A stretch of DNA of 64,000 bases from a virus: positions 62,001-126,000 of the IMG/VR virus record IMGVR_UViG_3300042197_003184. One strand, written 5' to 3'. The position numbers and the translations under genes are program-made. Below the pieces are notes generated by a model. That model did not search any database. It saw only the letters and a program-made list of their open reading frames with translations, and was not told where the DNA came from. Of this stretch, positions 26,356 to 62,678 are shown piece by piece. Position 1 is the first letter of the stretch. Each line of letters opens with the position of its first letter.

Positions 26356-26383
26356 ATCATAAAACGCCGCGCACGGGTGTCAA
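26356..26383 (-). promoter_or_regulatory. Sigma70-like promoter for ssb
   Basis: Read on the minus strand: TTGACA at 26383-26378, a 16-base spacer, then TATGAT at 26361-26356, both near consensus. Transcription would start near 26348, about 35 bases before the ssb ATG. The -35 box overlaps the stop of the polymerase C-half gene. This is the clearest promoter seen in the window and suggests use of the host housekeeping polymerase. Confidence 0.7.
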
Positions 26384-28005: not shown

Positions 28006-28693
28006 TTACAAAAGATCCTTTAAATTTTACCTTTTTGGACATGTTACGATGTAATTTAAGAAATCTAATCAACAAGTTTGCTGTATCCTTAACGTCTTTT
28101 AAAGCGTCGTGAGAACCTTCGGCACTTAAGCCAAAATATTCTCTTACATGATCCAGAGTATAGTTCTTAAGTTCGTTGTTTCCTTCAAACCAATAAAACA
28201 TCATGTTCATAAGATCTATAACGTCTCTAGGATAAAAAAGAGAACTTCTGCCTTCTTTATTAAGGTTATTATATTTGATACTAAGTCTTTCTACAATTCT
28301 TAGATCGAATCTGTTTATGTTGTAACCAGCAGCTATAGGAGCAGTAAAGCAAGATTTTTTATCGGATCTTGTATGATACATGCTCAGATAAGAAACAAAC
28401 ATTTGCCATCCCTGATCCTGTTTTTGGAATTCTTTCCAGCTGTCCAGAATAGCAGCCTTAGTAGAGTTACGAACCTTGGCATGAAAGTCTAGCACATCAC
28501 TATCGGCGTAGTCATAGTCTGGATTGTCTTGTAGAGCAGACGGTTTGAGACTTATATTGAATTCTGAGTCTTTTACTATCTCTAACTTGAGAGGGTCCAC
28601 AATCACAGCAGCTATTTGAACTGGACTACAAATATCCGGATTCGCCCCGTCTGTTTCGAGATCGAAAACGCACAGTTTTTGAAAATTAGCCAT
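27998..28693 (-). CDS. DnaQ-like 3'-5' exonuclease
   Basis: 231 residues. DEDD exonuclease signatures: FDLETDGANPD near residue 10 (motif I, DxE), AAGYNINRFDLRIVERL (motif II), and a late GSHDALKDVKDTANLL (motif III with H and D, DEDDh type). It probably provides proofreading for the split polymerase. The gene lies exactly between the two polymerase halves, its ATG overlaps the stop of the 59-residue gene, and its own stop overlaps the C-half start. An exonuclease inside a PolIII-type unit recalls PolC, where it is fused in place. Confidence 0.85.
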   Translation of the reverse strand: MANFQKLCVFDLETDGANPDICSPVQIAAVIVDPLKLEIVKDSEFNISLKPSALQDNPDYDYADSDVLDFHAKVRNSTKAAILDSWKEFQKQDQGWQMFVSYLSMYHTRSDKKSCFTAPIAAGYNINRFDLRIVERLSIKYNNLNKEGRSSLFYPRDVIDLMNMMFYWFEGNNELKNYTLDHVREYFGLSAEGSHDALKDVKDTANLLIRFLKLHRNMSKKVKFKGSFVNA

Positions 28694-28865
28694 TAAATGT
28701 TACCTTTGTGTCGTCTGAAAAATATGTCTGATTATTTGGGTTGGTAACCGCCTGAGCATTGGTCACCTTACAACAGCTAATTCTGTTATCTTGCGTTCTG
28801 ATATACTCGATATCGTTATACAGGAAGCGCTGTCCAACCCCGATATCCCTAAAGTTTTTCTCCAT
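28686..28865 (-). CDS. Small 59-aa phage protein between polymerase halves
   Basis: A 59-codon ORF starting ATG at 28865 (MEKNFRDIGVGQRFLYNDIE) and ending TAA at 28686-28688, overlapping the exonuclease ATG. The start lies three bases before the stop end of the polymerase N-half gene, so it fits the operon exactly. The pattern of a short IGVGQRFLYNDIEYIR strand set with an RISCCKV turn and AQAV resembles small beta-barrel proteins common in phages. Function unknown; position suggests a replisome accessory. Confidence 0.7.
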   Translation of the reverse strand: MEKNFRDIGVGQRFLYNDIEYIRTQDNRISCCKVTNAQAVTNPNNQTYFSDDTKVTFNG

Positions 28866-28867
28866 AA

Positions 28868-30736
28868 TTAAATTGCTCCAGTTTTTAAAATATCTGATAT
28901 GGCCATAATTTTATCTAACATTGCTATACCCAATACGTCAAATTTAATAATACCCAAAGCTTCCAGGTCTTGCATTTCCATCCCGGCTATAGGTTGTTTG
29001 TTTTTGGTATCGTAGACCATTGGACATAGATCGCTTAATTTATCATTACTAATAACTATGCCAGCGGCATGTTTAGACTGGTTGGACTTGGTGCCCTCCA
29101 ATCTTATTGCTTGCTCAAACCTTTTAGATAACGGTCCCGAAAGCTGGCCTTCACTATCAATATAACACCACTCCTTTAGTTTGTCAACGTTGTTTTCCAA
29201 CGCCCATCTGATAATGGAAGCTTCTCCGGTATCTTCTTTCATTTCCTGAAGTTCGTCAGCAATCTTGGCTTCGTCCGGTATGCATTTGGTAATACGATTC
29301 ATCTCTTCAAAGGATATATTTCCGTAAACCCTTAAAACCTCTTTTAATGCTCCTCTCCCTTTCATAGTATTAAAAGTGATCATCTGAGATACTTTATCTG
29401 ATCCGTATTTATTTTTTATATACTCTATGATTTCTTCTCTTTTGTTAATAGGAACATCTACGTCAATATCTGGCATAGAAATTCTATCTGTTGTGTTTCT
29501 ACCAGCATTATAAAATCTCTCAAAAATTAAGTTATATTTTATGGGATCTATAGATGTAATACCTACTAAATATGAGACCAAACACCCTGCTGCCGAACCT
29601 CTTCCTGGGCCCGGTAGCCAACCCTCTTTTCTGACTTTATCCAGAATATCACCAACTATTAAAAAGTAACTAGATAAACCCGCACCTTGTAAAACTTCTA
29701 GCTCATATTTTATTCTGTCGGTATAGGTGTTTTGTTGGTCTTTATCTATGATGTTGGATATTTTTTCTCTCCATCCTTTGCGACAAAGTTCTCTTAGATA
29801 TTCATCTGGATTTGTATTATTAGGACACGAAAATGGAGGTAGGACTGGTTTGCTTAATATGTCATATTCTTCGCATAAACTATCTACGTATATAGTATTT
29901 TCTATTTCTTCCGAAGTATGAAGTTCTTGTATTTCCTCAGGCGATAGAATATGGAAATTCTCTGATCTAAAAAAACATTCCATCGGTATTTTTTCATTAT
30001 TTAGCATCTTTTTGTTAATATCTACCAACGTGGTTTTTAGATTATTACAAAGTAATATACGTTGGTCTATTGCGTCTTCTTTCTCGCAATAGTGGGCATC
30101 TGGCGTACAGATAACCTTAGTGTTGGTATTTTTTCCCAGCCTGCGAATCATGTCTGTGACTTCTTGTTGTATTGGGGTGTGGACAACATCCATTAGCTGG
30201 GACTCTAAGAAGAAATTATCTTTGCCAAAAATCTCTTTCATTTTATCAACATAGCTAGTGCCTATGTTCATAGCGTCGTCTTTGTTTTGTAGCATAAGGT
30301 CCGTAATATGGGATCCCAAGTGCCCGGCTATGCCTATCATATTACCGTCTAGCAGGCCGGATAAGGTTTCGATATCGAGTCTAGGCTTATGGTAAAAGTT
30401 ACCAGCTTCGTTGGATGCTGATACTATGCGTATCAGGGTTTTCCATCCTTCATGGTTTTTGGCCAGTACGATAAAATGACTTAGATCGCTATTGTCGCTA
30501 TTTTTTATAGTACAATTCTGGTGCGAAACATAAATTTCGCAACCCAAAATAGGCTTGATACCGGCAGATTTCATTACTTGGTAAAACTGTACAGTGCCAG
30601 AGATAGTACCATGGTCTGTTAATGCACAAGACTTAACTCCTATTTTTTTGCACCTATCAGCAATTTGTTGCGGTTTACTAAGCCCATCCAATAAAGAATA
30701 ATGAGAATGTACATGCAAAGGAATATATGGTTTCAT
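28868..30736 (-). CDS. dnaE: DNA polymerase III alpha, N-terminal half (split DnaE)
   Basis: 622 residues. PHP domain at the start: HVHSH (residues 8-12), ALTDHG near 38, and CTPDAHY later. Polymerase palm: GPGRGSAAGCLVSYLVG, then MPDIDVDVP near 419 with two catalytic Asps, and KFDVLGI near 599 with the third. The protein stops about 20 residues after that motif, before the conserved CFQLES region found in the gene at 26380-28005. No intein sequence is visible at the break, which differs from the cyanobacterial DnaE split site (at FNKSHS). The two polypeptides must assemble non-covalently. Coupled to the nuclease upstream by ATGA. Confidence 0.92.
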   Translation of the reverse strand: MKPYIPLHVHSHYSLLDGLSKPQQIADRCKKIGVKSCALTDHGTISGTVQFYQVMKSAGIKPILGCEIYVSHQNCTIKNSDNSDLSHFIVLAKNHEGWKTLIRIVSASNEAGNFYHKPRLDIETLSGLLDGNMIGIAGHLGSHITDLMLQNKDDAMNIGTSYVDKMKEIFGKDNFFLESQLMDVVHTPIQQEVTDMIRRLGKNTNTKVICTPDAHYCEKEDAIDQRILLCNNLKTTLVDINKKMLNNEKIPMECFFRSENFHILSPEEIQELHTSEEIENTIYVDSLCEEYDILSKPVLPPFSCPNNTNPDEYLRELCRKGWREKISNIIDKDQQNTYTDRIKYELEVLQGAGLSSYFLIVGDILDKVRKEGWLPGPGRGSAAGCLVSYLVGITSIDPIKYNLIFERFYNAGRNTTDRISMPDIDVDVPINKREEIIEYIKNKYGSDKVSQMITFNTMKGRGALKEVLRVYGNISFEEMNRITKCIPDEAKIADELQEMKEDTGEASIIRWALENNVDKLKEWCYIDSEGQLSGPLSKRFEQAIRLEGTKSNQSKHAAGIVISNDKLSDLCPMVYDTKNKQPIAGMEMQDLEALGIIKFDVLGIAMLDKIMAISDILKTGAI

Positions 30737-47221: not shown

Positions 47222-49102
47222 CTAGAATGTGATGCTCCCGCTGCCTGTGAACGTGTAGTATGTGTATCCGCCGCTCTCGGTGCGCGTTGGCGAGCCGGTT
47301 GTAGACGCAGCAGTCACGGAGCCAAGCGTTCGCAAAATCACAACGCCAGAACCGCCAGCGCCGCCGCTTCCAGCAACGCCACTGCTTGACCCACCACCAC
47401 CGCCGCCCGTGTTAGCGATTCCAGCCGAACCGGGATTGTTGGGATTCCCATTTCCGCCGGCACCGCCTCCGCCGAGTCCGGCTGCGCCGACCGTGCCGCC
47501 GTCCCACAGACCCCCAGAGCCACCGCCCGCGTAGTAGGTTCCGTTGAGCCACTGCGACCCGTTGCCACCAGCGCCGGAGTACCCAGTATTAGATGCACCA
47601 CTTGCAGCACCGCCAGCGGCACCTGCGCCACCACCGCCACCACCGTGTCCAGCGGTTGCGTCGGACGAACCTGCGCCGCCGCTGTTGCCCTGTCCTGACG
47701 TGCCGGTGCCAGCCGTTGTGGGATTTGTTCCAGCCCCGCCACCACCGGAGCCTCCGGTGCCGCCAGCGTAGGTTTGCCCGGTGCTTATGCGAGTGCCGCC
47801 GCCACCACCGCCGGCCGATGTAACCGTGAAGGCCGATGAGTTGCTTCCAGCAACACCAGCGCCGCCGATGTTTACCCCGCCAGCGCCACCAGAACCGACC
47901 GTTACCGTGTATTGAGTACCGGCCGTCAACGTCGTTGAGCCAGACCGATACCCGCCAGCGCCGCCGCCACCGCCGTGCGAGCCGCCGCCACCGCCACCGC
48001 CTGCTATGACGAGGTATTCAACCGTAATGGATCCAGATGAAGAAACAATTAACGTTGCAACACTGCTAATGAGGCTCACTCCTCCTGTTGATTTGACTAT
48101 ACAACGATAAATTTCTCCATTATTATCAGCTTCAGTTAAATTTGATAAAGATAATGTACTGCTAGTGGCTCCAGAAATATTAGAAAAAGATGAATTGCCT
48201 TTCTTTTTCTGCCACTGATAACTTAGTGTTGCTCCTAATGTAACACTAGCGGTTATGCTAAATGAAGCATTTCCAGCACTAACAGTTTGATTAGATGGTT
48301 GAGAGCTTATGGTAATAATTGGAGAAACTGGGAATGGTACAGGTGATGGTGTGAAGTTGGATGAATAACGGGCTATTCCTTTGGTTATTCTGATTTCGTC
48401 AATATATCCTGATAATAGATAGTTAGTATCATAATATCCTCCAACACAAAGATGTTGACCAGAACAGTTGCCACTAGCTGTGCCAGAAGCTGCAAGATTA
48501 CCATTGACAAATATTCTAATAATCCCAGACTGTCTACAGACCGCAATATGATACCACTGATTAGTATTGATCAACGATGCTGGTGTTGCGATGCTTGTTC
48601 CGGCAACATTTACTCTAAGAGCACCATTATTATAATTGATTATAATGCCGGTTGTATATGAGGTTGATAGTCCTCCGGACTGATTAGTGGTTTGGATCCA
48701 GCCTCTTTGGGTAGTAGAAGATACATCACTGGAATAAACCCAAGCTTCTACTGTAAAATCACCAGTATCAAAAGCAAAAGACGAACTACTAGCCGACAAA
48801 TAATCTCCAGACCCATCAAAATAAGCCGAAGACCCACCGAACTTGCTCTGATCTGACGATTGAGTAGCATCCCCCGATACTGTTAACGTATGATTATACG
48901 ACGAACTATCAACAAAAGAATTTCCAGTTCCGTCCATATGCATCAACAAACTCACATTACCAAAATAAGGATCTGGTACTGGCATAGCAGTATATAATGT
49001 ATTGTAAGCTCCTTGTCCAATACTATTAAGAGCAGCAACTCTAAAAATATAGTCGCCACTAGGAAGAGGAGAAATATTAGCTGTAGTATTAAGTGTTGTC
49101 AT
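47222..49102 (-). CDS. Adhesin: half FN3, LamG, Ig-like, Gly-rich domain
   Basis: 626 residues from the ATG at 49102, which overlaps the previous stop as TAATG. Order: second half of an FN3 (PSGDYIFRVAALNSIGQG), LamG (VSLLMHMDGTGNSF to IDEIRITKGIARYSSNF), Ig-like domain (ISSQPSNQTVSAG to GEIYRCIVKS), and a Gly-rich domain starting VEYLVIAGGGGGG and ending YTYYTFTGSGSITF. The Gly-rich part is written in GC-rich codons, unlike the rest. The Gly-rich domain type is known from phage adhesins such as the gp38 family. Probable receptor-binding protein. Confidence 0.8.
   Translation of the reverse strand: MTTLNTTANISPLPSGDYIFRVAALNSIGQGAYNTLYTAMPVPDPYFGNVSLLMHMDGTGNSFVDSSSYNHTLTVSGDATQSSDQSKFGGSSAYFDGSGDYLSASSSSFAFDTGDFTVEAWVYSSDVSSTTQRGWIQTTNQSGGLSTSYTTGIIINYNNGALRVNVAGTSIATPASLINTNQWYHIAVCRQSGIIRIFVNGNLAASGTASGNCSGQHLCVGGYYDTNYLLSGYIDEIRITKGIARYSSNFTPSPVPFPVSPIITISSQPSNQTVSAGNASFSITASVTLGATLSYQWQKKKGNSSFSNISGATSSTLSLSNLTEADNNGEIYRCIVKSTGGVSLISSVATLIVSSSGSITVEYLVIAGGGGGGGSHGGGGGAGGYRSGSTTLTAGTQYTVTVGSGGAGGVNIGGAGVAGSNSSAFTVTSAGGGGGGTRISTGQTYAGGTGGSGGGGAGTNPTTAGTGTSGQGNSGGAGSSDATAGHGGGGGGAGAAGGAASGASNTGYSGAGGNGSQWLNGTYYAGGGSGGLWDGGTVGAAGLGGGGAGGNGNPNNPGSAGIANTGGGGGGSSSGVAGSGGAGGSGVVILRTLGSVTAASTTGSPTRTESGGYTYYTFTGSGSITF
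47225..48025 (-). other. GC-rich island encoding the Gly-rich domain
   Basis: About 800 bases at the 3' end of the adhesin gene use G/C third positions (GGC, GCG) and differ sharply from the AT-rich first part of the same ORF. The change occurs close to the start of the Gly-rich domain. A Gly-rich sequence at about 59700-60450 in this window uses mainly GGT/GGA codons, so amino acid content alone does not explain it. Best explained as a domain acquired from a high-GC source. Confidence 0.65.
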
Positions 49103-52100
49103 TATACTATACCCCATTTAGATATTAGATACGCTTCAACAAGGTCGGCTTCGGCGTCGCTGATTTTGCTGTTATAGGCGACGATCTCGCAGATGTACCC
49201 GCTCCACGGATATTCATTGTTATAGGGGTATGCGCCGATCTGCGTCGGTTGGTTTGTTGTTGTAATGCCAGAAACGTTAGTATCTGCCGTGCCGTCAACA
49301 CCATTTAGGCCCACAAATCCGTTGTCGGCACCCAGCCTGAGCGCGGCTAGGAATGTCGTGTTTGCAGAAATACTGCCCTTCGTTGGCGCGCGAAGACTCG
49401 GGGTCCACCAATGCGTTTCAACATTAGACCCGTTGATGCGAAGAAACTGATGGGCGCGTGGGTTGACATTAGGGTTGTCCTTGTTCACCAGCAAACCAAT
49501 GCTTGACGTGGATGTTTTTTGTGCGACAACAAACAGCGACACATGCCCAGACCCGTTTTCAATATTGCCACTGAACTCCAGCCCGTCGTTACTGCCGTCA
49601 AAAAACAGCGCATCCTTAGCGCTGACGACGCCCGCCTTTCGCAGCGGCCGATTTGCACTCGTCCCCTGCGTCGCGTGCCGCCCGTTCCCCGACTTGTCCT
49701 CCCACCGCGCCACGCTGCCATCGGCTGCGACGAGACTGCCCCCACTAGTCGAATCATAGAGCGTAGAAGCATCACTACTATCTAGCCACAACTGCAATCC
49801 TGATATTGAGCTGGGACTAAATGTTGGGGGTGTTGGCGGCGTTTCAATATGAGAAGTCCAATTATTTCCTCCATCATTACTATATTGTACTAAGTATCCA
49901 GTTATTGCTGGTAACACTAGTTCATTAGACCAATTTAATTGGACACCACTAACAGAAGTTTGGTTAATAGTAAAGTTTGGTGGAGGTGGAGGAACTTCTT
50001 GATAATCTATCCAATTATTACCACCGTCAGTAGAGTATCTAACATTATAAGAAATTGGCAATGAACGACCATCATCCGCTGGACTGTCCCAAGTTAATAA
50101 TGCTCTACTATCACCAGCAGCTCCTGTCAAGTTGTTGATGATTGAAGGCACAGTAGCCTCAGAAATATTAGGAGTAGCAGAAATTATAGAGGTATAGCTA
50201 CTTGAACCAACACTATTTACAGCTTTCATTCTGAAATAATATGTTGTTCCATTGGTTAGTCCCGTAACATAAATACCACTATTTGAAAATGCTAAAGTAT
50301 CAGTAAAAGTAGTCCAATTAGTTTGATCAGTACTATATTCTATAGAATACGTTGTGCTAGATGGCAATCCACCGCTATTTCCTTTTGTCCAAGATAGTGC
50401 TACTAGCTGATCTCCTGGATCAGCAGCAAAATTAGTTACTGATGATGGGACTATAGCGGTAAAGTCTATGTAAAAATAATTATTGTAACCGTCTTGAACT
50501 ACAGAATACTCGGATTCTGTTGTGGAACTTGACCCGTTAGTAATACCACTATACGGCCATAAGTCTTTTAATACTGTTCTAAAATATACTCTTCCACTCA
50601 GATCTACCAATGGAGTTAAATGATTATCAGTATTTCCGTATGATATATATTTAAGATTTATGTCGTTTGCAGAGTTTGTGTATGTCCATAATCCTTCGGC
50701 AGGATTTAATGAATATTGGAATTTTAGAGCCGTATCATTGCCTGTATACCAACTATTGTCTGGCGTTGGACCATATCCATTAGCGTATACACCTATATTA
50801 AGTCTTTCATTAGCATTAGCATACAAACCAAAATAAGATTTATTATTTATAGTTTCATATTGTCCGGTATGTCTATTATAATCATGATAGAACTCATAAT
50901 TATAATAATTGTAACTTAGATTGACTAATCTAACAGCTGGTGTTACCACAGTTGTTGAGTATGCAGAAGTTACTACGCATCTTACAGGATCTTTTCCTGC
51001 TGGACTATTATAAGAATAGTTATTTGCAGCATTAAATGATTGAGTATTAATAGTTAAACTTGATGATGTGGCACCATCAATATTTTGCCAACTTCTTCCA
51101 TAGTCTCCATAATAGTTATTAATGTCTGTATCGTATTTTTGCCACTGATATGTTAATGCAGAATTGTCCGGGATTGTCGCGGTAACAGTGAAAGTTGTGC
51201 TTTCATTATAGCTTATTACTCTATCGTTTTTCGGTGCTGAAGTTATTGTTAGTACTGGAGGAGGAGCAACCAGAGTCGAAGAGCTTGTTAGATAATTGCT
51301 ATATCCTCCACTATTTTGTGCTCTAACTCTGAAGATATAATTTTTATTATTTGGCAAGTTAATTACTCTAGCATTAGCAAATTCCGTACTGAACACAGCC
51401 GTAAATGCTTCTGTGTACAATGCCTCTCCAACGGTATATCTTAATTCGTCTAGTCTTCCTAGTATATAGTTGTTTGGATTATGAGATGCTGATTCTCCTC
51501 CCATAATAACAAGACCTCCGGATGAGAAATTGTCATTATTAGTATCTGCTATTTCTAATATCTTTGCTCCTTCGAGGAAAATTCTCATTGTTCCATTATT
51601 GCGACAAAAGGCTAAGTGTATTGGTTTCTTATTGTATTGACCGACACCGTAATTATTTGTATTACCTCTTAATGAACCAGATACATTGACACTATAAACG
51701 GAAGACCCATTAACATATTTATGAATTCTAACAGTATTCCAGTCAATATTTTGTATACCAAAATATGATCCAGATGAACCGTTGTGGGAGCCAAATAGTC
51801 TACCTATACCACCAACAGCATATGGTTCATCAAACATGACAAACATTTCAAGAGTGTAATTCCCTGTCCCGGGATTTAGATCACTAGAACTGTCAACTTT
51901 AACAATATAAGGAGAAGAGTATCCTGATGTTCTATTGTATTGTATGTCTAAACATCCTGTTCCAAATTTTTGATATGTACCAGCAGATGATGCTCCTCCA
52001 ATGAATGCTGGATTGTTATTAGTATTCCAAAGAACATTTCTATTATAAAGAGAATAATCTTTAACTTTAGCATTACCTCTAATATCCCCCTTATTAAAGT

Positions 52101-53874
52101 GGAGCAATAGTCTGGTTGGAGATGACGAAACCGATGTCCATGATTGGGGATCTGTATCTTCTGTATATTGTAGATCATAAGATACTAATACTGATTTGTC
52201 GCTTGGAGGAGCAGAGAAGTCTATTTCTGCCGAAGCATCTCTACCATAAGCTGTTATACTAGGTGGAGCTTCTGGAGCAGTTATGGTTGGGGCTATATTT
52301 GAGAATGGTAGGGTTGGAGGTGTGAATATTGTGCCATCCGGATATCTGCATACTCCGCGAGTAATACGAATATCATCTAGATAACCTGCATAAAATGCAG
52401 TGTTATGGTATCTTCCAATATTTAAAGGACCAGTACCAGTAGCTATTCTACCACTAGAAGATCTTGTTGTTATTTGAGTACCATTCTGATAAGTTCTTAA
52501 AGTATTGCCTTGTCGAACAACAGCATAATGAACCCAATTATTTAAACTAATAGCGCCCATATCCATTTCGCTAGCAATATTCCAATTGTCATAGTTAGGA
52601 TCTTGACAAAAATAAGCCCGAACTCTGTTATTAGCTGCATAGCCTATTAAAAATGGGTTATATCCTTGATCGGTATTTGTGCGACACATTACTGATCTAC
52701 CACTAGTACTATCAGTTCTATATTCCCAATACTCTATTGTGAAATCTTCAGCACCAAAATCAAATCCAGGATGATCCGGAATCGTCACATAGTCTCCACT
52801 ACCATCAAAATACATACTTGATCCACCAAATTTATTTCGTGCAATACTGATTTTGGCATCGCCTTGAGCTGTGGAAGTTTTGGGTAAGTACGATGAGTCT
52901 ACAATGTTTGTACTATTATGACTTTCGTCAAAATGCAATAACAGCGAAGTGCTGTAGAAATATGGGTCTGGGTTGGTGTCAACTGCTGGTTCTGCTGGAA
53001 CTAGATTTGATTCGCTAACATATGAACCAATACCAGTATAATTAACAGCACCCACTCTAACGCTATATGTTGTGCCGTTTGTGAGTCCCGTAACACTAAT
53101 AGCAGGAACAACACTGGGAGAGTGAGCAAAATCCGTCCAGTTAGTGCCGTCTGTTGAATATTGGATACTATAATCAGTTATTATTCCACCATTATCCTCA
53201 GCGGGTGCTGTCCAAATCATATTAATTTTTTGTACCAATGGACCAGCGATAAGCTCTGTTGGAGCATTGGGCGGGGTGACAGGAGTTCCAGTAGAAGGAA
53301 ATGGAGCATGTAGTGTTTTGATATCAAAATTAGATGTATATTTGGCAGATCCTATGCCTTTGGTGATTCTGATTTCGTCCATAAAGCCACTAAAGGTTTC
53401 ACTACCATTAGTACGTCCCCCAATGAATAATGACTTGCTTGCTCCTAGATCACCACCATTACTAATAGACAATGATGCTGTACCATTAATAAAAACCTTA
53501 ACGGTGCTGCCGCTTCTAACAAGAGCCAAATGACTCCAAGAGTTTAAAGGAACATTGCCAGGATTCCAATTATATTGAGAGTTATTAATATATAGATTAT
53601 CACCACCAGTACCCATTCTCCATAGTATACCGCTTGTATAAGATCCTATTTCAAATAATGTTCTCCAATTATTATTATCATAAGCGTAAACCCATAATTC
53701 TACTGTAAAATCACCGGTTCCGAAACCAAAATCAGTATTATCAGCAACTGAAGCATAAGCCCCATTATTCAAGTATAAAGAAGCTCCACCAAATCGACTT
53801 CTTAGGGAGCTGATAGCTGCTCCATTATTTAGTGTGACGGTTTTAGGTTTTGGTGACGAATCTATTATACTCAT
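49102..53874 (-). CDS. Giant adhesin with nested LamG and FN3 modules (1590 aa)
   Basis: Order: LamG lacking its first strand (residues 1-190), FN3 (about 200-300), LamG (305-530), then an FN3 interrupted by a third LamG (first half before RLLLHFNKGD, second half from ARVINLPNNKNYIFRVRAQN), an Ig-like part (TYQWQKYDTDINNYY), a Tyr/Asn-rich domain near 980-1140, two FN3s, the first half of another FN3, and a final LamG-like domain (SGLQLWLDSSDAS to AYLISKWGIV). The start ATG has no good ribosome binding site and follows two in-frame stops. The last domain is GC-rich. Probable host-binding protein. Confidence 0.75.
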   Translation of the reverse strand: MSIIDSSPKPKTVTLNNGAAISSLRSRFGGASLYLNNGAYASVADNTDFGFGTGDFTVELWVYAYDNNNWRTLFEIGSYTSGILWRMGTGGDNLYINNSQYNWNPGNVPLNSWSHLALVRSGSTVKVFINGTASLSISNGGDLGASKSLFIGGRTNGSETFSGFMDEIRITKGIGSAKYTSNFDIKTLHAPFPSTGTPVTPPNAPTELIAGPLVQKINMIWTAPAEDNGGIITDYSIQYSTDGTNWTDFAHSPSVVPAISVTGLTNGTTYSVRVGAVNYTGIGSYVSESNLVPAEPAVDTNPDPYFYSTSLLLHFDESHNSTNIVDSSYLPKTSTAQGDAKISIARNKFGGSSMYFDGSGDYVTIPDHPGFDFGAEDFTIEYWEYRTDSTSGRSVMCRTNTDQGYNPFLIGYAANNRVRAYFCQDPNYDNWNIASEMDMGAISLNNWVHYAVVRQGNTLRTYQNGTQITTRSSSGRIATGTGPLNIGRYHNTAFYAGYLDDIRITRGVCRYPDGTIFTPPTLPFSNIAPTITAPEAPPSITAYGRDASAEIDFSAPPSDKSVLVSYDLQYTEDTDPQSWTSVSSSPTRLLLHFNKGDIRGNAKVKDYSLYNRNVLWNTNNNPAFIGGASSAGTYQKFGTGCLDIQYNRTSGYSSPYIVKVDSSSDLNPGTGNYTLEMFVMFDEPYAVGGIGRLFGSHNGSSGSYFGIQNIDWNTVRIHKYVNGSSVYSVNVSGSLRGNTNNYGVGQYNKKPIHLAFCRNNGTMRIFLEGAKILEIADTNNDNFSSGGLVIMGGESASHNPNNYILGRLDELRYTVGEALYTEAFTAVFSTEFANARVINLPNNKNYIFRVRAQNSGGYSNYLTSSSTLVAPPPVLTITSAPKNDRVISYNESTTFTVTATIPDNSALTYQWQKYDTDINNYYGDYGRSWQNIDGATSSSLTINTQSFNAANNYSYNSPAGKDPVRCVVTSAYSTTVVTPAVRLVNLSYNYYNYEFYHDYNRHTGQYETINNKSYFGLYANANERLNIGVYANGYGPTPDNSWYTGNDTALKFQYSLNPAEGLWTYTNSANDINLKYISYGNTDNHLTPLVDLSGRVYFRTVLKDLWPYSGITNGSSSTTESEYSVVQDGYNNYFYIDFTAIVPSSVTNFAADPGDQLVALSWTKGNSGGLPSSTTYSIEYSTDQTNWTTFTDTLAFSNSGIYVTGLTNGTTYYFRMKAVNSVGSSSYTSIISATPNISEATVPSIINNLTGAAGDSRALLTWDSPADDGRSLPISYNVRYSTDGGNNWIDYQEVPPPPPNFTINQTSVSGVQLNWSNELVLPAITGYLVQYSNDGGNNWTSHIETPPTPPTFSPSSISGLQLWLDSSDASTLYDSTSGGSLVAADGSVARWEDKSGNGRHATQGTSANRPLRKAGVVSAKDALFFDGSNDGLEFSGNIENGSGHVSLFVVAQKTSTSSIGLLVNKDNPNVNPRAHQFLRINGSNVETHWWTPSLRAPTKGSISANTTFLAALRLGADNGFVGLNGVDGTADTNVSGITTTNQPTQIGAYPYNNEYPWSGYICEIVAYNSKISDAEADLVEAYLISKWGIV
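49120..49760 (-). other. GC-rich island encoding C-terminal LamG-like domain
   Basis: About 640 bases with G/C-ending codons inside an otherwise AT-rich 4.8-kb gene. The island matches closely a single module, from about GGSLVAADGSVARWEDKSGN to near the C-terminus, of the LamG-like type with SGLQLWLDSSDAS. Flanks return to AT-rich codons within a few codons. Best explained as a recent import of one domain. Confidence 0.65.
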
Positions 53875-53889
53875 TTTATTATGGCCCTA

Positions 53890-56800
53890 TTAATTTGAAT
53901 CTAAATGTAATAGTAATCTTGTTTTGTTATATGTGTTGTCTTCTCTAAGAACCGTTAGTGTCGGAGAAACCGTTGAAACATAACTTCCTGTACCAGCTAT
54001 ATTAATCGCTGCTACCCTGAAAGAGTAGCTAGTACCAACAGTTAATCCGTCAACCACAATAGATGTACTTATACTAGGACTATGAATATAGTCTGTCCAT
54101 GTGCTTCCATTATCTGATGAATATTGTACGGAATAGTCTTTGATAGCCGAATTATTAGCTGTTGGAGCTGTCCAACTTAAATAAGCTCTATCGCTGTCTG
54201 GTATAACATTAAGGTTTGTTGGTGCTCCTAAAGTACTGATAGCGCTAGTGGTTGAAGAACTATAATTACTAGCTCCTATAGCATTAACTGATCGTGCTCT
54301 AAAAGTATATGGAGTACCAATTGTGGATAGTCCGGTTATTCTATTAGCAGGGGCCTGTGGTAGTGATCTTGGGTCAAAATTACTTGTATATCTTGCTACC
54401 CCTTTAGTGATTCGTATATCGTTCATGTGTCCATAAAAATATTCATTTCCAGCAGGCCAGCCACCAACATACACCTTACGATTAGTATTATAGACAGTAT
54501 CTGCAACAAAATTTAATACCGAAATACCATTAAGATACAGAGTTATGATTCTGCCACTACGCACAACAGCAACATGATTCCAAACATTAGCATACGGTAC
54601 GGCACTGCTTTCTTGTTGACCGCCAGTTACGGCGGTATAAAAAGATAGCACACCAGTACTCTGTCTCAAATATAGCTGCCAGTCTCCGTCCGTGCCTTCG
54701 CTTCCACCATTACCTCGTTTACTTATGACGGTATTGTATTTACTCCAATCTCCTGTTGGCCTTATCCAACCCTCTATAGTCCAGTCTTGATTACGCAAAT
54801 CAAAAGCCGAGTTATTTTCTATTACTAAATTATCATTAGATCCATCAAATACTACGCTACCATTACTAAACCACCCTTGAGATGTAGTAATTTTTGTATC
54901 TCCAACAATACTAACATTATGATTGTGTTTTGAATCATCAATAATATCAAAAGAGTTATTGGTTCCCGTCATTGGTAACAATAATGATACCTTGTCATAA
55001 TAAGGATCAGAAACTACTGACAAGTTATTCCATGTTGATCCGTCTTCCGAATACTGAAAATTATAAGCCGTTATAGGAGAACGACCATCGTTTGTTGGTG
55101 GAGTCAAGGACACTTTAAAGATATTGTCTCTTTCGGTAACAGCTAATCCGCTAGGAGATGATGGTGCTGTTGGGGCAGGACCAAGGTTTGGTGCGGGGGC
55201 TGCTGGTTTTGTAAAGCTTGAGGTGTATCTTGATATTCCTTTGGTTATTCTAAGGTCGTCAATATATCCTTTATAATTATCTGTTATAGAGTTACTAGAT
55301 GATCGACTAGCTCCTACTGTTAGACCGTTGGAGTTGATTCTGTTTATGTTATCTGTAAATGGTCCTTGGTTTGGAAATGAACTGCTGGGTGGAGTAAAAT
55401 TAGAAGTATAGCGAGCTATACCTTTAGTGATACGAATCTCATCAATAAAGCCACCACCCCACGACGGATAACCAGAACTTCGTCGTCCTGCAACATCTCC
55501 AATCCACAAAGCCTGACCATTCAAATTAGCATTGCCAATATCAGCTGGGGTTCCGGCCACGCCATTAACCCATATGGTTGCGATACTACCGCTTCTGGTC
55601 ATAGCAATATGAGTCCATTGACCAACAGCCAAGCCAGTAGAATGAGAAGCGTAACTTGCTGTGACAGCGAAATATGTGGACATACCATTCGTACCTCCTG
55701 CCAAAACCCAAGGACTGCCCACTGCCGAAGAACGAAAATCCATAATGTTTCTAGAATCGAACCCAACATCAAGATAAATCCATGCCTCTATCGTAAAATC
55801 GCTCGTTCCTAGTTGTAGATCCGAGTCGCTGGCAACAGAGATAGCTCCGTCTGTACCAAGGCTTAGACTAGTTGCTCCAAACTTGCTTTGTGCTGTCGAA
55901 AGTTTAGCAGTTCCATGGACAGAGATGGCTCTTGTGTCAAGACTGGAGTCTGTTAAAGAAATAGCTTCATCGACCCCATCCATATGCAACAATAACGACA
56001 CATTACTATAGTATGGGTCTACTGCGGATGTTCCTAGTTCGTTGCCGTCTAAGAATAGCTTCAAACTATCGCTAGAACGACTGGCGGCTAAATGATACCA
56101 TGTTCCAGAAGCTAATGGAGGAGATACTTCTTTTTCTACTATTGTAGTATTGCCATTTCGGAATTGTACGATAGAAGAATTTACTGTGCAGCCCAGTATC
56201 TCTTTACGTGTGTACGAGAAAGCTCCTCCACCACCACTTTGCCAGCTCGTAAACTTAATTGCCCAATATCTATTGGTGGGTACATGCTTCATTATGAGTT
56301 CTTTACCAACCATCTCTGGAGTAGAATAACAGCTTCTTACAATGCCATAGTCTCTCCAATTACCATATGTTCGTGTGGTGTAATTACAAATATTGGTCCA
56401 GTTATTAGCATCTTCAACGCAACAATTATAATTATCTGATTGATATTGTCTACATCTATTCCAAACAGTATTAGCAGGAGAAGAACTCTGACTATAACCA
56501 CCTTCTATAGCACTATTATATATACCTTGCCCATCTCCTCGTGTAATTTCCAAAACGCCAGGAATAATCACATCCACTTCATTACCATAGTTTGTTGCAG
56601 TAAAGGAGACCTCTGGTCCGTAATTGACCGTGCCACCAGTAGACGGCGAGCCTACTGCTAATCTCCAACCCCCATCAGCTCCATCATAATTACCAACAAT
56701 AGCTTTGGTGCCATTCATATCATCTGGATTGATCCAAGCTTCTACGGTAAAGTCATCTGTACCTAATTGCCAAGCCTTATCTCCTGGAACGCTCAGATAA

Positions 56801-57447
56801 GAATTGCCGTCGAAATATGCGCTAGTTCCACCAAATTTACTTTGTGCCGAACTAATAACAACAGGACCTTTGTTTCCTACTGGTTTATCAAAACGTGAGC
56901 CGTCATCAAACGAAGAAATTGTTGCAGGATCGAGGGGGTTGGGTACAAAATTAGCAGTGTATCTTGCAACACCCTTACTAATGCGCAATCCGTCTATCCA
57001 CCCATCAATAGGATAAGATCCTGTATCTCCGTTACCTATGGCTAAATTTCTAGAACTGTCATTAACTAATGAGGAGCTGTTGTTCCATGATGATGTAAGA
57101 GATCCGTTTACAAATGTTCGAAAAGTTGAACCTGATCTTGTAACAGCAACGTGGTACCATGTATTCAGAGTTATGCTAGGCGCAACAGTTTGATTATTAG
57201 CAATGTCCCAGCTTGATCCGTTGCTAGAAGCATAAAATGCTATTCTAGAATCTCCTGTGGCATATATTAAAAAAGCACCAGTATGAGAAGGCCAGCCTTT
57301 GGTTACTATACCTCTGTCATTAAGCCAGCTATTAAACTTTACCCAACACTCTATAGTAAAATCCCCTGAGCCAAAGTTAAAGTCTTCGCTATGAGGAACT
57401 CTTAAAGATGAACTATTAGATACTCTAAGACTACTAGGTAATGGCAT
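53890..57447 (-). CDS. Giant adhesin with multiple LamG/FN3 modules (1185 aa)
   Basis: Starts inside a LamG (SLRVPHSEDFNFGSGDFTIE) without its first strands. Next: a partial LamG carrying a Cys-rich insert (NRCRQYQSDNYNCCVEDANN, then SWQSGGGGAFSYTR), a LamG cut short before a new one (DPYYSNVSLLLHMDG), a C-terminal LamG remnant (NYKGYIDDLRITKGISRYTS), then an FN3 interrupted by a full LamG, a second FN3, and a final LamG first strand (KTRLLLHLDSN) before TAA TAG. The interrupted end continues in frame in the next gene. Probable host-recognition protein with many recombination scars. Confidence 0.72.
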   Translation of the reverse strand: MPLPSSLRVSNSSSLRVPHSEDFNFGSGDFTIECWVKFNSWLNDRGIVTKGWPSHTGAFLIYATGDSRIAFYASSNGSSWDIANNQTVAPSITLNTWYHVAVTRSGSTFRTFVNGSLTSSWNNSSSLVNDSSRNLAIGNGDTGSYPIDGWIDGLRISKGVARYTANFVPNPLDPATISSFDDGSRFDKPVGNKGPVVISSAQSKFGGTSAYFDGNSYLSVPGDKAWQLGTDDFTVEAWINPDDMNGTKAIVGNYDGADGGWRLAVGSPSTGGTVNYGPEVSFTATNYGNEVDVIIPGVLEITRGDGQGIYNSAIEGGYSQSSSPANTVWNRCRQYQSDNYNCCVEDANNWTNICNYTTRTYGNWRDYGIVRSCYSTPEMVGKELIMKHVPTNRYWAIKFTSWQSGGGGAFSYTRKEILGCTVNSSIVQFRNGNTTIVEKEVSPPLASGTWYHLAASRSSDSLKLFLDGNELGTSAVDPYYSNVSLLLHMDGVDEAISLTDSSLDTRAISVHGTAKLSTAQSKFGATSLSLGTDGAISVASDSDLQLGTSDFTIEAWIYLDVGFDSRNIMDFRSSAVGSPWVLAGGTNGMSTYFAVTASYASHSTGLAVGQWTHIAMTRSGSIATIWVNGVAGTPADIGNANLNGQALWIGDVAGRRSSGYPSWGGGFIDEIRITKGIARYTSNFTPPSSSFPNQGPFTDNINRINSNGLTVGASRSSSNSITDNYKGYIDDLRITKGISRYTSSFTKPAAPAPNLGPAPTAPSSPSGLAVTERDNIFKVSLTPPTNDGRSPITAYNFQYSEDGSTWNNLSVVSDPYYDKVSLLLPMTGTNNSFDIIDDSKHNHNVSIVGDTKITTSQGWFSNGSVVFDGSNDNLVIENNSAFDLRNQDWTIEGWIRPTGDWSKYNTVISKRGNGGSEGTDGDWQLYLRQSTGVLSFYTAVTGGQQESSAVPYANVWNHVAVVRSGRIITLYLNGISVLNFVADTVYNTNRKVYVGGWPAGNEYFYGHMNDIRITKGVARYTSNFDPRSLPQAPANRITGLSTIGTPYTFRARSVNAIGASNYSSSTTSAISTLGAPTNLNVIPDSDRAYLSWTAPTANNSAIKDYSVQYSSDNGSTWTDYIHSPSISTSIVVDGLTVGTSYSFRVAAINIAGTGSYVSTVSPTLTVLREDNTYNKTRLLLHLDSN

Positions 57448-57459
57448 TATAATCTTTCC

Positions 57460-57822
57460 TTATGTTGTTAGTTCTACCCAATTTTGAGACTCTTCATCCC
57501 ACTTGTAAACCTTGCCGTCTGTTGGGTGGTCTACTGGGGCTTTCCATCGACAACTGTTAGTATCCAAAGTCCATGAAGCAAAAGGCTGGGGAGCAACAAA
57601 AGCATCCAAACCCTCATTATAACTATACCCTATACCAGCATAATTTTTCCTAATTTTGCCGTTGTACGATGTTTGTTTCCATCTATTATGACCAAATAAA
57701 GAGGCTAAGAAATTTACTCCTTTGCTCTCACTTTCTTCTCCATTATCAATTAATTCATTATTGTTAACAACAATCACTTGAGTTACAATATTATTGTCAT
57801 CTAATTCAGCAAAATGGGCCAT
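57460..57822 (-). CDS. Small tail-fibre-associated protein
   Basis: 120 residues. Recognisable phage pattern: MAHFAELDDNNIVTQVIVVN start, FGHNRWKQTSYNGKIRKNYA, AFVAPQPFASWTLD, and WDEESQNWVEL at the end. Proteins of this type are common beside fibre genes in aquatic phages. Probably virion-associated; exact role not known. It stands between two giant adhesin genes with short spacers. Confidence 0.75.
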   Translation of the reverse strand: MAHFAELDDNNIVTQVIVVNNNELIDNGEESESKGVNFLASLFGHNRWKQTSYNGKIRKNYAGIGYSYNEGLDAFVAPQPFASWTLDTNSCRWKAPVDHPTDGKVYKWDEESQNWVELTT

Positions 57823-57835
57823 TTTATTCTCCTTC

Positions 57836-60800
57836 TTAGAATGTTATAGAACCTGTTCCTGTGAAAATATAAAGTTTACCACCGTCACTGTTAGAATCAG
57901 GGAATTGGGAATCCGGTACGCTTATAGAGGATCCTGTATAATTCCTGCCACTGCCGATAGTAAATCTTACATCATCTATATAGTAGTTGGGTGATGACCA
58001 GCCATAACCAGTAAAATCAAAATTTGCTCCTATAAACCCATACGGTAAACTAGCTAGATTATAGTTGTTGTTATCTGTGGTACTATCCACTAGTATTCCG
58101 TCCACATAGGTTCTAGTAGTACCAGATGTGCGAGCAATAGCAATATAAACCCATTGAGATAAAGGCAGGGTAGCGATCCATTGTCTACCATTAGATGGTA
58201 AATTTAAAGATAGTCTTCTGCTCTGATCTATTTCTACATTAAATCCTGTGACACCCGGATATCGAAAATCGAAAAGAGCACTATTATCAGATTGAGACCC
58301 AGCAATAAATACCCAGCTTTCCAGTGTGAAATCTTGAGTTCCTATGTTAGACATAGAGCCTATTCTTAAATAAGATCCATTACCTAATAATGCTGCGCTT
58401 TTACCTCCCCATTTAGATTGAGTCGATGACTGTGTAGCAGAACCGAATGCCGTAATAGTCTTTGGATTTGGTGAGACATCTGTAAATACTGATGCATTGT
58501 CGTTCATATGTAATAATATTGATACATCTTTAAAATAAAGATCACTAGCTGGACTAATAATAGGGGATCCGGTTGTTGATGTTGCTGCTACAGAAGATTT
58601 GATTACTACTACGCCAGAGGCACCTGAGCCAGCAGCGTTGTTGCCGGAACCTCCAGCGCCTCCACCTCCGCCGGTATTTGCGACGGCTGCTGTTCCGGTA
58701 CTTCCGGCTCCTCCTGTGCCGCCACCCCCACTACCGCCAGAACCAGCCGTTGCGCTGCCGGTATTGGTACCTCCACCACCACCACCTGCGTATGTTGTTC
58801 CGTACCACGACCTACCATTGCCTCCAGAACCACCTACAGAGCTGGTTCCATTGCTGCCAGCCGTCTCTGCCCCGCCACCGCCACCTCCTCCATATGCTGG
58901 GGAATTATAGTTTGACGATCCCCCGTTATTTCCGTATCCTATAAATGGTCCGGAACTGGTTTGTGTAGCGGTGCCGCCAACAGATCCTTCGTTATTTGAT
59001 CCTCCGCCAGAACCTCCGTTTTTGCCGTTGGCATTAGGAGAACATCCGCCACCACCACCACCATTCGCCGTATGACCAGCAAACGTAGAATCAGATCCGG
59101 TATTGCCAGCATTGCTGGATACTGCTGTTCCACCAGCACCAACAGAAACAATGTAGGTTTCTCCCACAGTAAGAGATAAAGCAGTAGCTTCTAACAAACC
59201 TCCAGCGCCGCCGCCACCGCCTCCACCATTACCAGAACCGCCAGCGCCGCCTCCTGCCACAACTAAGGCTTCAACAGAAACGTCTGGAATTGGTAGAGTT
59301 ACTGACTTAGCTTTCCAACCTCCTTGGCCATTACTATTAATGGCCGCCACTCTAAAATAGTAGTTTCCATCAGCTAGTCCAGAAATTGTAACACTATTGG
59401 TGCTAGATGTTCCGTCGTTTACGGTAGTCCAATTAGATTCGTTTTCTGTACGGTATTGAATCACATAATCAGTAGCTCCGTCTATAGAGTCCCATGATAG
59501 GGTCGCCTCTCCTGGAGTGCTAGAGCTGGCAGTTATATTGGTTGGAGGAGTAGGGGGAGATGCTGATGGAAAAGTTATGGATCCAGTACCAGTAAACATA
59601 TAAATATTGTATAAACCATCAGCTGATACTGTTGGGCTTCCTGTTGTTGAAGTTGCGGTGGCTTTTGTTCTTAGAATAACAGCACCAGAACCTCCAGTTC
59701 CTCCATAGTTATTAGAATTGTAATGAGAGCCTCCACCACCACCTCCTCCAGTATTAGCTCCACCATTTCCACCAGGAGTATTAGTTTGAGAATTTGTACT
59801 ACCTCCACCTCCAGATGCTCCATTATTTATGCCAGCTCCACCAACCGTTGTACCAACAGCCCCGCCACCTCCACCACCAATACCTCCGTCTCCTCCGGTA
59901 GTAGTATAACCAGAACCACCGCCGCCACCTGCCCAGTAATAAAGAGTTCCTAATATTCTGCTAAGTACTCCAGGACCGCCGTGGCCTCTTACGCTACCAT
60001 TTCCAATACCAGCACCTCCGGCTCCACCACCGCCACCAGGATACCAGTGTGGTCCGCTGCCAGCACCATCATATCCTTGTTTGGCAGTACCGCTTCCAGG
60101 CAAGCCACCATAACTACTACCGTTTTGACGACCACCTGATCCACCACCACCACAACCTCCACTATTTGCATTCCATCCGTTACCGTTATGTTGACTAGCC
60201 CCGTAACCTCCGCCTAGTGCTGTAACCAGAGCGTTGCCTATTACGGAAATAATACTGTTACCTCCATTGGTGCCTGACCCACCACTACCAGCAGGTGCTC
60301 CAGACCCACCAGCACCCACAACCACATTCAGAGTACTAACATTTGCTAAATACATAGGAGATTCTGCTGTTGATCCTCCGCCAGAAGTTGCTCCCTCAAC
60401 GTTGGTGATCAAACCACCGGCACCACCGCCACCACCCATATCGTTACCTCCGCCTCCTCCACCAGCGACCACTAGATATTCAACAGAAATTCCTGTTAAT
60501 GGCAGAGCTAGATCTATAGAAGTCCAAGAACTTTGTAGATCTCCATTGGTACCAGCTATTCTAAAAGTATATGTTCCATTGGGTAAATTATTGATAGTGG
60601 TACTATTATTAGATGATACTCCGTCATTAACGGTTGTCCAAACTATTCCTCCGTCTGTGCTGTACTGAATAATATAGTCTGATGCTCCTGGAGGTAGTGT
60701 GGGTGCTGTCCAAGACAGCGTTAACGACCCACTTTGTGGTTGAGATGGTACAATATTAGTTGGTGCAGGTAGCGGGCCTGAGTACGTTGATGTTGAGGGG

Positions 60801-61765
60801 CCGTTAATGGCATAAATAGTTTTGGGGTTAGGAGACAAATCTCTAAAAGGATTAGAAGGATTAGGATATGCCGAAGTGGGTAATGTAATATTACGAGCAA
60901 CACCGTTGGTGAATCTGAATTCATCTATCTGACCATCAAAACCACCAACACTAGCCACCCTACCAACACTAAATCCATTCTGATTAAAATTAGTAGAAGA
61001 GAAAATAGTACTATTACTTACTGTTTGTTCTACTCCATCAATAAATATTTTTATAGTACCGCTTTGTCTAAGTATGGCTAAGTGATACCACGTATTTGTT
61101 GAAGCAGACCACGGGGAGGTGCAATAATTACTCGTGGCGTGTTGTCCAACCATCAGATTACCAGAACTATACTGAATATACCATTTGCCACCATCTGCAC
61201 CATTAGGGTCTGATGTTGGATTACAAATAGGGTTTGCACTATTGATAGATCTAAACTTAACAAATAACTCAACAGTAAAATCTCCTGTCCCAACACTAAA
61301 ATCATTAGACGAATCAAAAGTTAGATAATTAGACCCATTAAAAGATAAAGAGCCTGTGCCAAATCTACTGTCGGATATTGTTTGAACTGGTACGGCCCCG
61401 TTAGTATAAACATTTTTGTTACCAAGAGAAGAGTCTGTTAAAGCTATACCATCGCCATGTAATAACAATTTTGTTTCTAAAGAATAGGGATCATCATTAG
61501 GACCGTATTGAGTTGTTCCCAGGATAAAAGCATCATTGCCATAATATGAGTCTCCATTAATTACCTCATCCATATTTAGCAATAATTCTACATTATGATA
61601 ATTGTCGTCTATAGCAAATAAAGACGGCGTTGCTAATACATAGTCTGTAAATGGGCCAACGCCTATAGAATTTACTGCTGCTACTCTAACTCGATAAGTA
61701 ACATCGTTAGTTAAGCCGGTAATAGTGTAACTTCTATTAGCACTATTGGTATTAATAGTTGGCAT
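57836..61765 (-). CDS. Giant adhesin: FN3, LamG and two Gly-rich domains (1309 aa)
   Basis: Order: second half of FN3 (ITGLTNDVTYRVRVAAVNSI), a remnant of LamG (VELLLNMDEVINGDS), a full LamG (98-310), FN3, first Gly-rich domain (from VEYLVVAGGGGGG), FN3, second Gly-rich domain (from VEALVVAGGGAGG). A LamG then interrupts the last hairpin of that Gly-rich domain: GSPIISPA before it and KLYIFTGTGSITF after it. No signal peptide. Probable large host-binding fibre protein. The ATG follows the recombinase gene after a 55-base gap. Confidence 0.78.
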   Translation of the reverse strand: MPTINTNSANRSYTITGLTNDVTYRVRVAAVNSIGVGPFTDYVLATPSLFAIDDNYHNVELLLNMDEVINGDSYYGNDAFILGTTQYGPNDDPYSLETKLLLHGDGIALTDSSLGNKNVYTNGAVPVQTISDSRFGTGSLSFNGSNYLTFDSSNDFSVGTGDFTVELFVKFRSINSANPICNPTSDPNGADGGKWYIQYSSGNLMVGQHATSNYCTSPWSASTNTWYHLAILRQSGTIKIFIDGVEQTVSNSTIFSSTNFNQNGFSVGRVASVGGFDGQIDEFRFTNGVARNITLPTSAYPNPSNPFRDLSPNPKTIYAINGPSTSTYSGPLPAPTNIVPSQPQSGSLTLSWTAPTLPPGASDYIIQYSTDGGIVWTTVNDGVSSNNSTTINNLPNGTYTFRIAGTNGDLQSSWTSIDLALPLTGISVEYLVVAGGGGGGNDMGGGGGAGGLITNVEGATSGGGSTAESPMYLANVSTLNVVVGAGGSGAPAGSGGSGTNGGNSIISVIGNALVTALGGGYGASQHNGNGWNANSGGCGGGGSGGRQNGSSYGGLPGSGTAKQGYDGAGSGPHWYPGGGGGAGGAGIGNGSVRGHGGPGVLSRILGTLYYWAGGGGGSGYTTTGGDGGIGGGGGGAVGTTVGGAGINNGASGGGGSTNSQTNTPGGNGGANTGGGGGGGSHYNSNNYGGTGGSGAVILRTKATATSTTGSPTVSADGLYNIYMFTGTGSITFPSASPPTPPTNITASSSTPGEATLSWDSIDGATDYVIQYRTENESNWTTVNDGTSSTNSVTISGLADGNYYFRVAAINSNGQGGWKAKSVTLPIPDVSVEALVVAGGGAGGSGNGGGGGGGAGGLLEATALSLTVGETYIVSVGAGGTAVSSNAGNTGSDSTFAGHTANGGGGGGCSPNANGKNGGSGGGSNNEGSVGGTATQTSSGPFIGYGNNGGSSNYNSPAYGGGGGGGAETAGSNGTSSVGGSGGNGRSWYGTTYAGGGGGGTNTGSATAGSGGSGGGGTGGAGSTGTAAVANTGGGGGAGGSGNNAAGSGASGVVVIKSSVAATSTTGSPIISPASDLYFKDVSILLHMNDNASVFTDVSPNPKTITAFGSATQSSTQSKWGGKSAALLGNGSYLRIGSMSNIGTQDFTLESWVFIAGSQSDNSALFDFRYPGVTGFNVEIDQSRRLSLNLPSNGRQWIATLPLSQWVYIAIARTSGTTRTYVDGILVDSTTDNNNYNLASLPYGFIGANFDFTGYGWSSPNYYIDDVRFTIGSGRNYTGSSISVPDSQFPDSNSDGGKLYIFTGTGSITF

Positions 61766-61820: not shown

Positions 61821-62678
61821 TTATGATATTAACTGCGGAGTTTGTGGAATTCTAGTAGTAATTTGACCATAATCAATATAGCTTTTTTCTGCTAATCCAC
61901 TAGATCGGTGTCCTAGGTGAAATTTAGCCATACCCGGCTGGTTTATTTCTATATGGGTAGCTCCGCTACGTCTTAAGAATTTACTGGAGCCTTTTATATT
62001 GCAGAATTTAAGAAAATCATACATAATAATTTGAGCCCTTCTTTTACCACACAACCATCCTAATATTCTATTGTCGTCAGAAGATTTGTATGATAATAAT
62101 TCATTAATACTATCTACGCAAGCGGAGCTTAAGACCTTAGTCATAGGATCGCCAGTTTTGCTCATGGTCCAGCGTAATATGTTGTTATCAATATGGTCTA
62201 TTGTAAAAGTTAATAAGTCTCCAAAACGAGCACCACTTTCATAACCTAATAATAACCATGCTCTAATAAAACATCCTAATGGAACTCCTTTTTTACTAAT
62301 TTTATCAAATTCATAACTTTTATCTATCAACATTTTACACTCATCAATCGTCCAAGCTTTTGTTGGGGCTTTTCTAGCTTTAATAGACACAATATTTTTG
62401 GGAGCAAATTTTACCAAATTATTTTCATAAGCATAATTCCATAAGGTTAACAAAATGGTACGCTCTGATTTAACAGTAATAGAACTAGCTTTAGTTAGAC
62501 GATCTTTTAAATAGTTATTAACAACATCTTTTAAGATATATTTACATCTTTTAGCAATTCTATAAACATTGCTCTCATATTCTTTAGACACTATATGATT
62601 ATTCATATAATGCTTAACAATACTAACAAAAGTTACATTCTTAGTTTTAGTCTTGGTCTTGGTCCTGGTCTTAGTCAT
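61821..62678 (-). CDS. Tyrosine recombinase (integrase-like)
   Basis: 285 residues, with a low-complexity Thr-Lys N-terminal tail. A SAM-like core-binding region spans 20-110. Catalytic domain: Arg in YESGARFGDLLTF, Lys in WTMSKTGDPM, KFLRRSGATHIEI in place of HxxR, LGHRSSG, and nucleophile Tyr in EKSYIDY. The His of HxxR is Lys here. A strong AAGGAGG lies about 8 bases before the ATG. It sits among adhesin genes, next to a sharp GC change. It could mediate integration or rearrangement of the host-range region. Confidence 0.82.
   Translation of the reverse strand: MTKTRTKTKTKTKNVTFVSIVKHYMNNHIVSKEYESNVYRIAKRCKYILKDVVNNYLKDRLTKASSITVKSERTILLTLWNYAYENNLVKFAPKNIVSIKARKAPTKAWTIDECKMLIDKSYEFDKISKKGVPLGCFIRAWLLLGYESGARFGDLLTFTIDHIDNNILRWTMSKTGDPMTKVLSSACVDSINELLSYKSSDDNRILGWLCGKRRAQIIMYDFLKFCNIKGSSKFLRRSGATHIEINQPGMAKFHLGHRSSGLAEKSYIDYGQITTRIPQTPQLIS

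Follow-up and report, generated by a model that had tools for sequence, protein, structure and literature searches.

A LamG domain within the terminal hairpin of a glycine-rich domain in a predicted phage adhesin

The architectures that appear closest to the one described here are those of the split-domain RTX adhesins and of the evolved Dits with carbohydrate-binding modules. In the RTX adhesins AhLap, FrhA, and MpIBP, split domains display the ligand-binding domains, and some inserts are nested in others (PMC12077191, PMC10865825). The ligand-binding module buds mid-domain, often from a split Ig-like β-sandwich, and the termini of the insert lie on one side, with the binding face turned from the stalk. 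The evolved Dits of lactococcal and other Gram-positive phages hold a carbohydrate-binding module within a phage host-recognition protein, both flanks of which align to the uninterrupted form (PMC10688798, PMC6669499), and work with recombinant phages has shown that the inserted module aids adsorption (PMC10688798). In cyanophage Pam3, the glycine-rich domain has been assigned to the tip that recognises the host (PMC9608196).

We analyzed a window of 64,000 bases, which covers bases 62001-126000 of a 139,964-base record, a contig of an uncultured virus. One of its ORFs encodes an adhesin-like protein of 1309 residues that carries a LamG domain in the hairpin of its second glycine-rich (Gly-rich) domain. 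By analogy, this protein may work like the RTX adhesins and the evolved Dits, and it belongs to neither by the features tested, since neither an RTX family nor the Dit family is found among its Pfam matches. It resembles the RTX adhesins in the budding of a module mid-domain and in the nesting of inserts. However, RTX adhesins are bacterial and secreted, whereas the hosts here are Gly-rich, FN3, and LamG domains of a phage, and the insert is a LamG with putative ligand binding. In the evolved Dits, a different carbohydrate-binding module is inserted, and it is the distal tail protein that receives it, with a function that has been demonstrated, while that of the LamG is putative. No direct precedent for LamG insertion in phage adhesins was found in the open-access literature.

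The split glycine-rich domain

The 1309-residue ORF comprises, in this order, a half FN3, a LamG, an FN3, a first Gly-rich domain (Gly-rich 1), another FN3, and a second Gly-rich domain (Gly-rich 2) with a LamG in its hairpin (Table 1). Gly-rich 2 matches PF21722 (Gly_rich_2) with 67.8 bits (cut-off 24.3), and the hairpin LamG matches PF13385 (Laminin_G_3 / ConA-like lectin) with 57 bits (cut-off 27.6). The C-terminal end of Gly-rich 1 reads ...AVILRTKATATSTTGSPTVSADGLYNIYMFTGTGSITF with no break, its hairpin being TTGSPTVSADGLYNIYMFTGTGSITF, and the typical end of the domain among relatives is TTGSPTVTTSGGYRIYTFTGSGSITF. Gly-rich 2 instead runs from ...VVVIKSSVAATSTTGSPIISPAS into the LamG (DLYFKDVSILLHM to SVPDSQFP), which is followed by DSNSDGGKLYIFTGTGSITF and the stop codon. 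The STTGSP directly before the break point is common to all three Gly-rich domains of the phage, and the FTG(T/S)GSITF motif resumes after it. The initial annotation had described both an unbroken end of Gly-rich 1 and a complete LamG between TTGSPIISPAS and the final motif of Gly-rich 2, and each description holds.

Table 1. Positions of the domains discussed, numbered within the window
Feature	Position	Strand	Remarks
1309-residue adhesin-like ORF	57836..61765	-	carries the hairpin LamG
Gly-rich domain 1 (residues 425-732)	59570..60493	-	hairpin intact; internal control
Gly-rich domain 2, core (residues 829-1058)	58592..59281	-	PF21722; predicted, pLDDT 89-98
Terminal hairpin, first arm TTGSPIISPAS (residues 1064-1074)	58544..58576	-	conserved TTGSP motif; two predicted strands (model-2 residues 238-240, 244-247)
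Hairpin LamG insert (residues 1075-1289)	57899..58543	-	PF13385; ConA-like jelly roll in model 1
Terminal hairpin, second arm DSNSDGGKLYIFTGTGSITF (residues 1290-1309)	57839..57898	-	like the end of intact Gly-rich domains; two predicted strands (model-2 residues 472-476, 480-483), pLDDT 96-98
Gly-rich domain 3, in the 631-residue ORF (47222-49117)	47225..48028	-	hairpin intact; internal control
Outer LamG, parts preceding the inner LamG, 1185-residue ORF	56023..56916	-	interrupted by ~140 cysteine-containing residues
Inner LamG nested in another LamG, 1185-residue ORF	55372..56019	-	complete LamG
Outer LamG, final part after the inner LamG, 1185-residue ORF	55189..55344	-	profile positions 169-219
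FN3, first half, 1185-residue ORF	55021..55164	-	
LamG inside FN3, 1185-residue ORF	54355..55008	-	
FN3, second half, 1185-residue ORF	54247..54351	-	
FN3, first half, 1590-residue ORF	52117..52275	-	
LamG inside FN3, 1590-residue ORF	51394..52116	-	
FN3, second half, 1590-residue ORF	51271..51396	-	LamG border uncertain by 1-2 residues

The spacing between TTGSP and FTxSG was compared in 44 related domains. It amounts to 12 residues in 38 of them and 14 in three, while the value of 232 is found in the window domain only; the remaining two domains are not matched by the spacing pattern, and their hairpins are visibly intact by eye. In a larger set, for which the spacing exceptions were judged by eye, 86 Gly-rich hits extend to the hairpin end, and a LamG occurs in the hairpin of the window domain only. 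A further 36 hits end earlier: one is the window domain, and in the other 35 the ORF stops at the core or close to it, or the chain continues into other sequence that is devoid of the motif. When Gly-rich rows alone, with no LamG rows, were aligned by MAFFT, all 32 intact hairpins were divided, unprompted, with one half on each side of the LamG. Because the spacing is 12 residues in 38/44 domains against 232 here, and 86 hairpins are intact against one, the break around the LamG is, judged from these alignments, more than a chance occurrence. The anatomy of the split domain and its rarity can both be read directly from the sequences. Gly-rich domains also vary in another way: in L150, L398, L226, and others, an FT-GTFT strand stands either before or after the core, which resembles a circular permutation.

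Searches for further cases, among them the survey of Gly-rich hairpins for LamG proposed in the initial annotation, left the window case standing and returned no second one. DNA patterns that combine a LamG end with the hairpin had no match in either viral or genome contigs, at a sensitivity of ~30% jointly on known examples (196/381 LamG ends, 53/87 hairpins), which is probably an overestimate as part of the hairpins had been gathered with a similar pattern. Patterns keyed on FP...FTxxG likewise reported no LamG followed by the hairpin among the loci inspected from the matches listed. These results point to an arrangement that is rare, and do not extend to its being unique. Two viral proteins annotated as ConA-like lectin, A0A6J7WA22 and A0A6J5L2W1, also match the Gly-rich model and may contain both LamG-like and Gly-rich domains. 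A pattern for a LamG with a half FN3 was dropped, as it missed the window's own cases.

Two AlphaFold2 models were obtained, of which model 1 was read for the LamG only and model 2 for the Gly-rich part only. The Gly-rich part of model 1 was excluded, as the Gly-rich rows of its alignment were displaced onto LamG columns, and attempts at one alignment with rows of both kinds in place retained at most 6 Gly-rich rows. In model 1, the LamG (model residues 247-463) is predicted with pLDDT values mostly of 84-97 over blocks of 10 residues, the lowest within the domain being 71-76. It adopts a jelly-roll fold, with Z ~20 to ConA-like domains such as domain 4 of AbnA (5hon). Many of the structure matches listed for it are chains of clostridial neurotoxin complexes, which reflects a common shared fold and is silent on toxicity.

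The alignment of model 2 comprises 73 sequences (72 Gly-rich relatives and the query), with the core placed in 72/72 and the hairpin-end pattern in 65/72. The Gly-rich core has a predicted pLDDT of 89-98, and on the far side of the LamG the final 14 residues reach 96-98. Strands are predicted at residues 1063-1065 and 1069-1072 before the LamG and, after it, at KLYIF (1297-1301) and GSIT (1305-1308). The LamG is poor in model 2 because its alignment holds no LamG relatives, and no single model renders both domains confidently. The core resembles the phage-tip fold, with Z 14.9 to the tail tip of mycobacteriophage Bxb1 (9d93) and 13.9 to the gp24 fibre of cyanophage Pam3 (7ypx), which exhibit the same glycine-rich fold as Gly-rich 2. 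Both alignments stop short of the hairpin, at model residue 233-238; in the window protein, a LamG occupies this C-terminal hairpin.

Gly-rich 2 is thus predicted to close across the LamG, its last strands being confident in an alignment with the Gly-rich family. The initial annotation had the last 15 residues pair with the strand that precedes the LamG, and in model 2 the final 14 residues are predicted confidently, with strands, so the refuting outcome named there did not appear; from the strand positions and homologous hairpins we infer that KLYIF (1297-1301) would pair with IISP (1069-1072).

Nested and split domains elsewhere in the adhesin cluster

The other adhesins of the window were examined with profiles built in this analysis, by which 441 LamG hits in 179 ORFs, out of 384 sequences, were compared with FN3 and Gly-rich domains. 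In the 1185-residue and 1590-residue ORFs, a LamG interrupts an FN3 at profile positions 48-56. The joined FN3 halves of the 1185-residue ORF score 36.3 bits against Pfam, and 19.4 and 13.9 alone; those of the 1590-residue ORF score 30.3 bits joined, and alone yield no match and 16.3, for a cut-off of 25 in both cases. As in the split-domain display of the RTX adhesins, the inserts emerge from domains whose two parts would make one fold: the end of Gly-rich 2 is predicted with confidence across its insert, and neither FN3 half exceeds the Pfam cut-off until the two are joined. In other phages, LamG and FN3 occur together in eleven ORFs. The FN3 is whole and beside the LamG in 10 of them, and the eleventh, L197, has only one FN3 match, which is incomplete but not split around a LamG.

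The 1185-residue ORF also contains a LamG nested in another LamG. Once its inserts are removed, the outer LamG scores 78.6 bits across the whole PF13385 profile. No Pfam family is listed for the stretch of ~140 residues with several cysteines that it contains (56193-56620). Moreover, the first LamG of the 1309-residue ORF (60854-61492) seems, by eye, to be nested in the start of another LamG, with NYHNVELLLNMDE before it and FRDLSPNPKTI after it, and the partial LamG at the beginning of the 1185-residue ORF may be what remains of this host.

Several domains are cut at gene borders. At 53850-53890, the 1185-residue ORF ends with TRLLLHLDSN and the next ORF begins with MSIIDSSPKPKT, which divides a LamG between the two. 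The N-terminus of the 1309-residue ORF (61630-61765) is the second half of an FN3; an upstream ORF (2735-3640 of L407) contains, by eye, an apparent FN3 first half followed by TPTP repeats, and several genes lie between the two. Between 46359 and 50136, FN3 domains appear divided among genes, with first halves near the end of the 1590-residue ORF and second halves at the start of the 631-residue and 284-residue ORFs. Joined across genes, they score 33.0 bits (1590 with 631) and 35.3 bits (1590 with 284), both above the Pfam cut-off; these pairings, chosen as complementary halves in order, are the sole ones scored and leave the assignment of partners unestablished. A broader reading, in which these adhesins are built mainly by nested insertion into turns, and FN3 halves on different genes (1590 with 631 and 284) reunite to staple chains into one fibre, we regard as unlikely.

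The surroundings of the cluster offer further observations. Directly after the 1309-residue gene, a 120-residue ORF (57460-57822) corresponds to phrog_7759, of unknown function. The gene at 61821-62678, within the adhesin cluster, is tyrosine-recombinase-like (phrog_1, integrase), its score against Pfam Phage_integrase being slightly under the cut-off. The segment 62001-64000, with a LamG- and Ig-type ORF, has a higher G+C (0.49) and could have come, as a module, from a different phage. Farther away (26380-30736), DNA polymerase III alpha is encoded in two ORFs, one with the PHP and NTPase part and the other with the finger and OB part, with an RNase_T-type exonuclease ORF between them. No close isolate phage was found, the best polymerase match being 35% identical, and an Rfam scan of the window gave no match.

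Nature of the insert and alternative explanations

The hairpin LamG belongs to a subtype with the signature QSKWGGKS...YTGSxIxVP..FP. It is 23-34% identical to five other aligned LamGs of the window, whereas its identity to one LamG from a different phage is 44%, or 42% when aligned a second time. In a quick tree, read for nearest neighbours only and without regard to support values, the window LamGs are long-branched and the inserted ones form no evident group; they are about as distant from one another as from the LamGs of other phages. The initial annotation had the same LamG type entering both an unrelated host and FN3. A LamG does lie inside FN3 as well, in two cases with one frame each, but the subtype is not the same. 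The LamG had also been viewed as an insertable cassette with fixed ends. Because the C-terminal ends vary (RNYTGSSISVPDSQFP vs RYTSNF..FP), no DNA motif beyond that required by shared residues is common to the ends of seven LamGs, and no direct repeat flanking the LamG borders exceeds chance (the longest being of 7-8 bases), these fixed ends are, by this comparison, the borders of a protein domain; what stands of the proposal is a module bounded in the protein. The third-position G+C of the insert (0.25) equals that of its ORF (0.25), so the hairpin LamG does not look freshly acquired, and we see no sign of a recent cassette at the DNA level.

That such a LamG would be a mobile cassette whose ends are fixed in the DNA, perhaps moved by the tyrosine-recombinase-like gene at 61821-62678, is suggested by the several LamGs that this one phage carries within host domains of three kinds and by the presence of this integrase-like gene in the same adhesin cluster. 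The absence of an end motif shared by the seven LamGs, the chance level of the flanking repeats, and the mutual distances of the window LamGs, about as great as those to LamGs of other phages, make it very improbable. A chimera of metagenome assembly is, in our estimate, scarcely credible: the 1309-residue frame is open across both junctions, the insert sits exactly at the turn with the third-position G+C of the host gene, and in-frame insertions at domain turns occur repeatedly in the cluster, even though the evidence comes from one contig of an uncultured virus, the arrangement was not found in a second genome, and neighbouring genes appear interrupted too.

The LamG might also be merely appended to a Gly-rich domain truncated within its hairpin, the last 15 residues forming an independent tail outside the Gly-rich fold. 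Such a reading could draw on the 35 other Gly-rich domains that are devoid of a C-terminal hairpin, and on the strand pairing being itself inferred. Yet the tail retains the consensus YxIYxFTGSGSITF of intact relatives, which would not be expected of a tail without a job, and it is predicted in strands with pLDDT 96-98 when aligned with these relatives; we hold this explanation to be rather improbable. We consider it probable, with good confidence, that the C-terminal part of the 1309-residue protein is a Gly-rich adhesin domain split around a complete LamG, giving a likely glycan-binding-type head, and that further nested insertions accompany this one in the adhesin cluster.

Proposed assembly and significance

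The split domain could assemble as follows. Formation would begin with the Gly-rich core and the first hairpin strand; the chain would then exit at the hairpin turn, fold a complete LamG jelly roll, and re-enter to supply the final strands of the Gly-rich domain. In LamG, as in other ConA-type jelly rolls, the first and last strands are neighbouring. Because the jelly roll begins and ends on neighbouring strands, a LamG can fit in a hairpin turn. Should the strands follow the fibre axis and enter the glycine loops, in the way described for Pam3, the turn would lie on the same side as these loops. The outcome would be a second head, of a putative glycan-binding type, on a phage host-recognition protein. 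Glycan binding by the LamG and a role in adsorption are plausible on this basis, and the orientation of the LamG and its route at the DNA level may likewise only be surmised.

Because nested insertions recur in the cluster, with LamG in FN3 twice and LamG in LamG once, insertion into turns seems to have enlarged these phage adhesins, besides end-to-end domain addition. Phage adhesins are usually treated as strings of domains, and the present case suggests that the turns of these folds admit whole lectin-type modules. Domain-by-domain annotation will list half domains as missing or degenerate. If the arrangement is general, searches for split domains, as carried out for bacterial RTX adhesins, would flag likely receptor-binding modules of uncultured phages.
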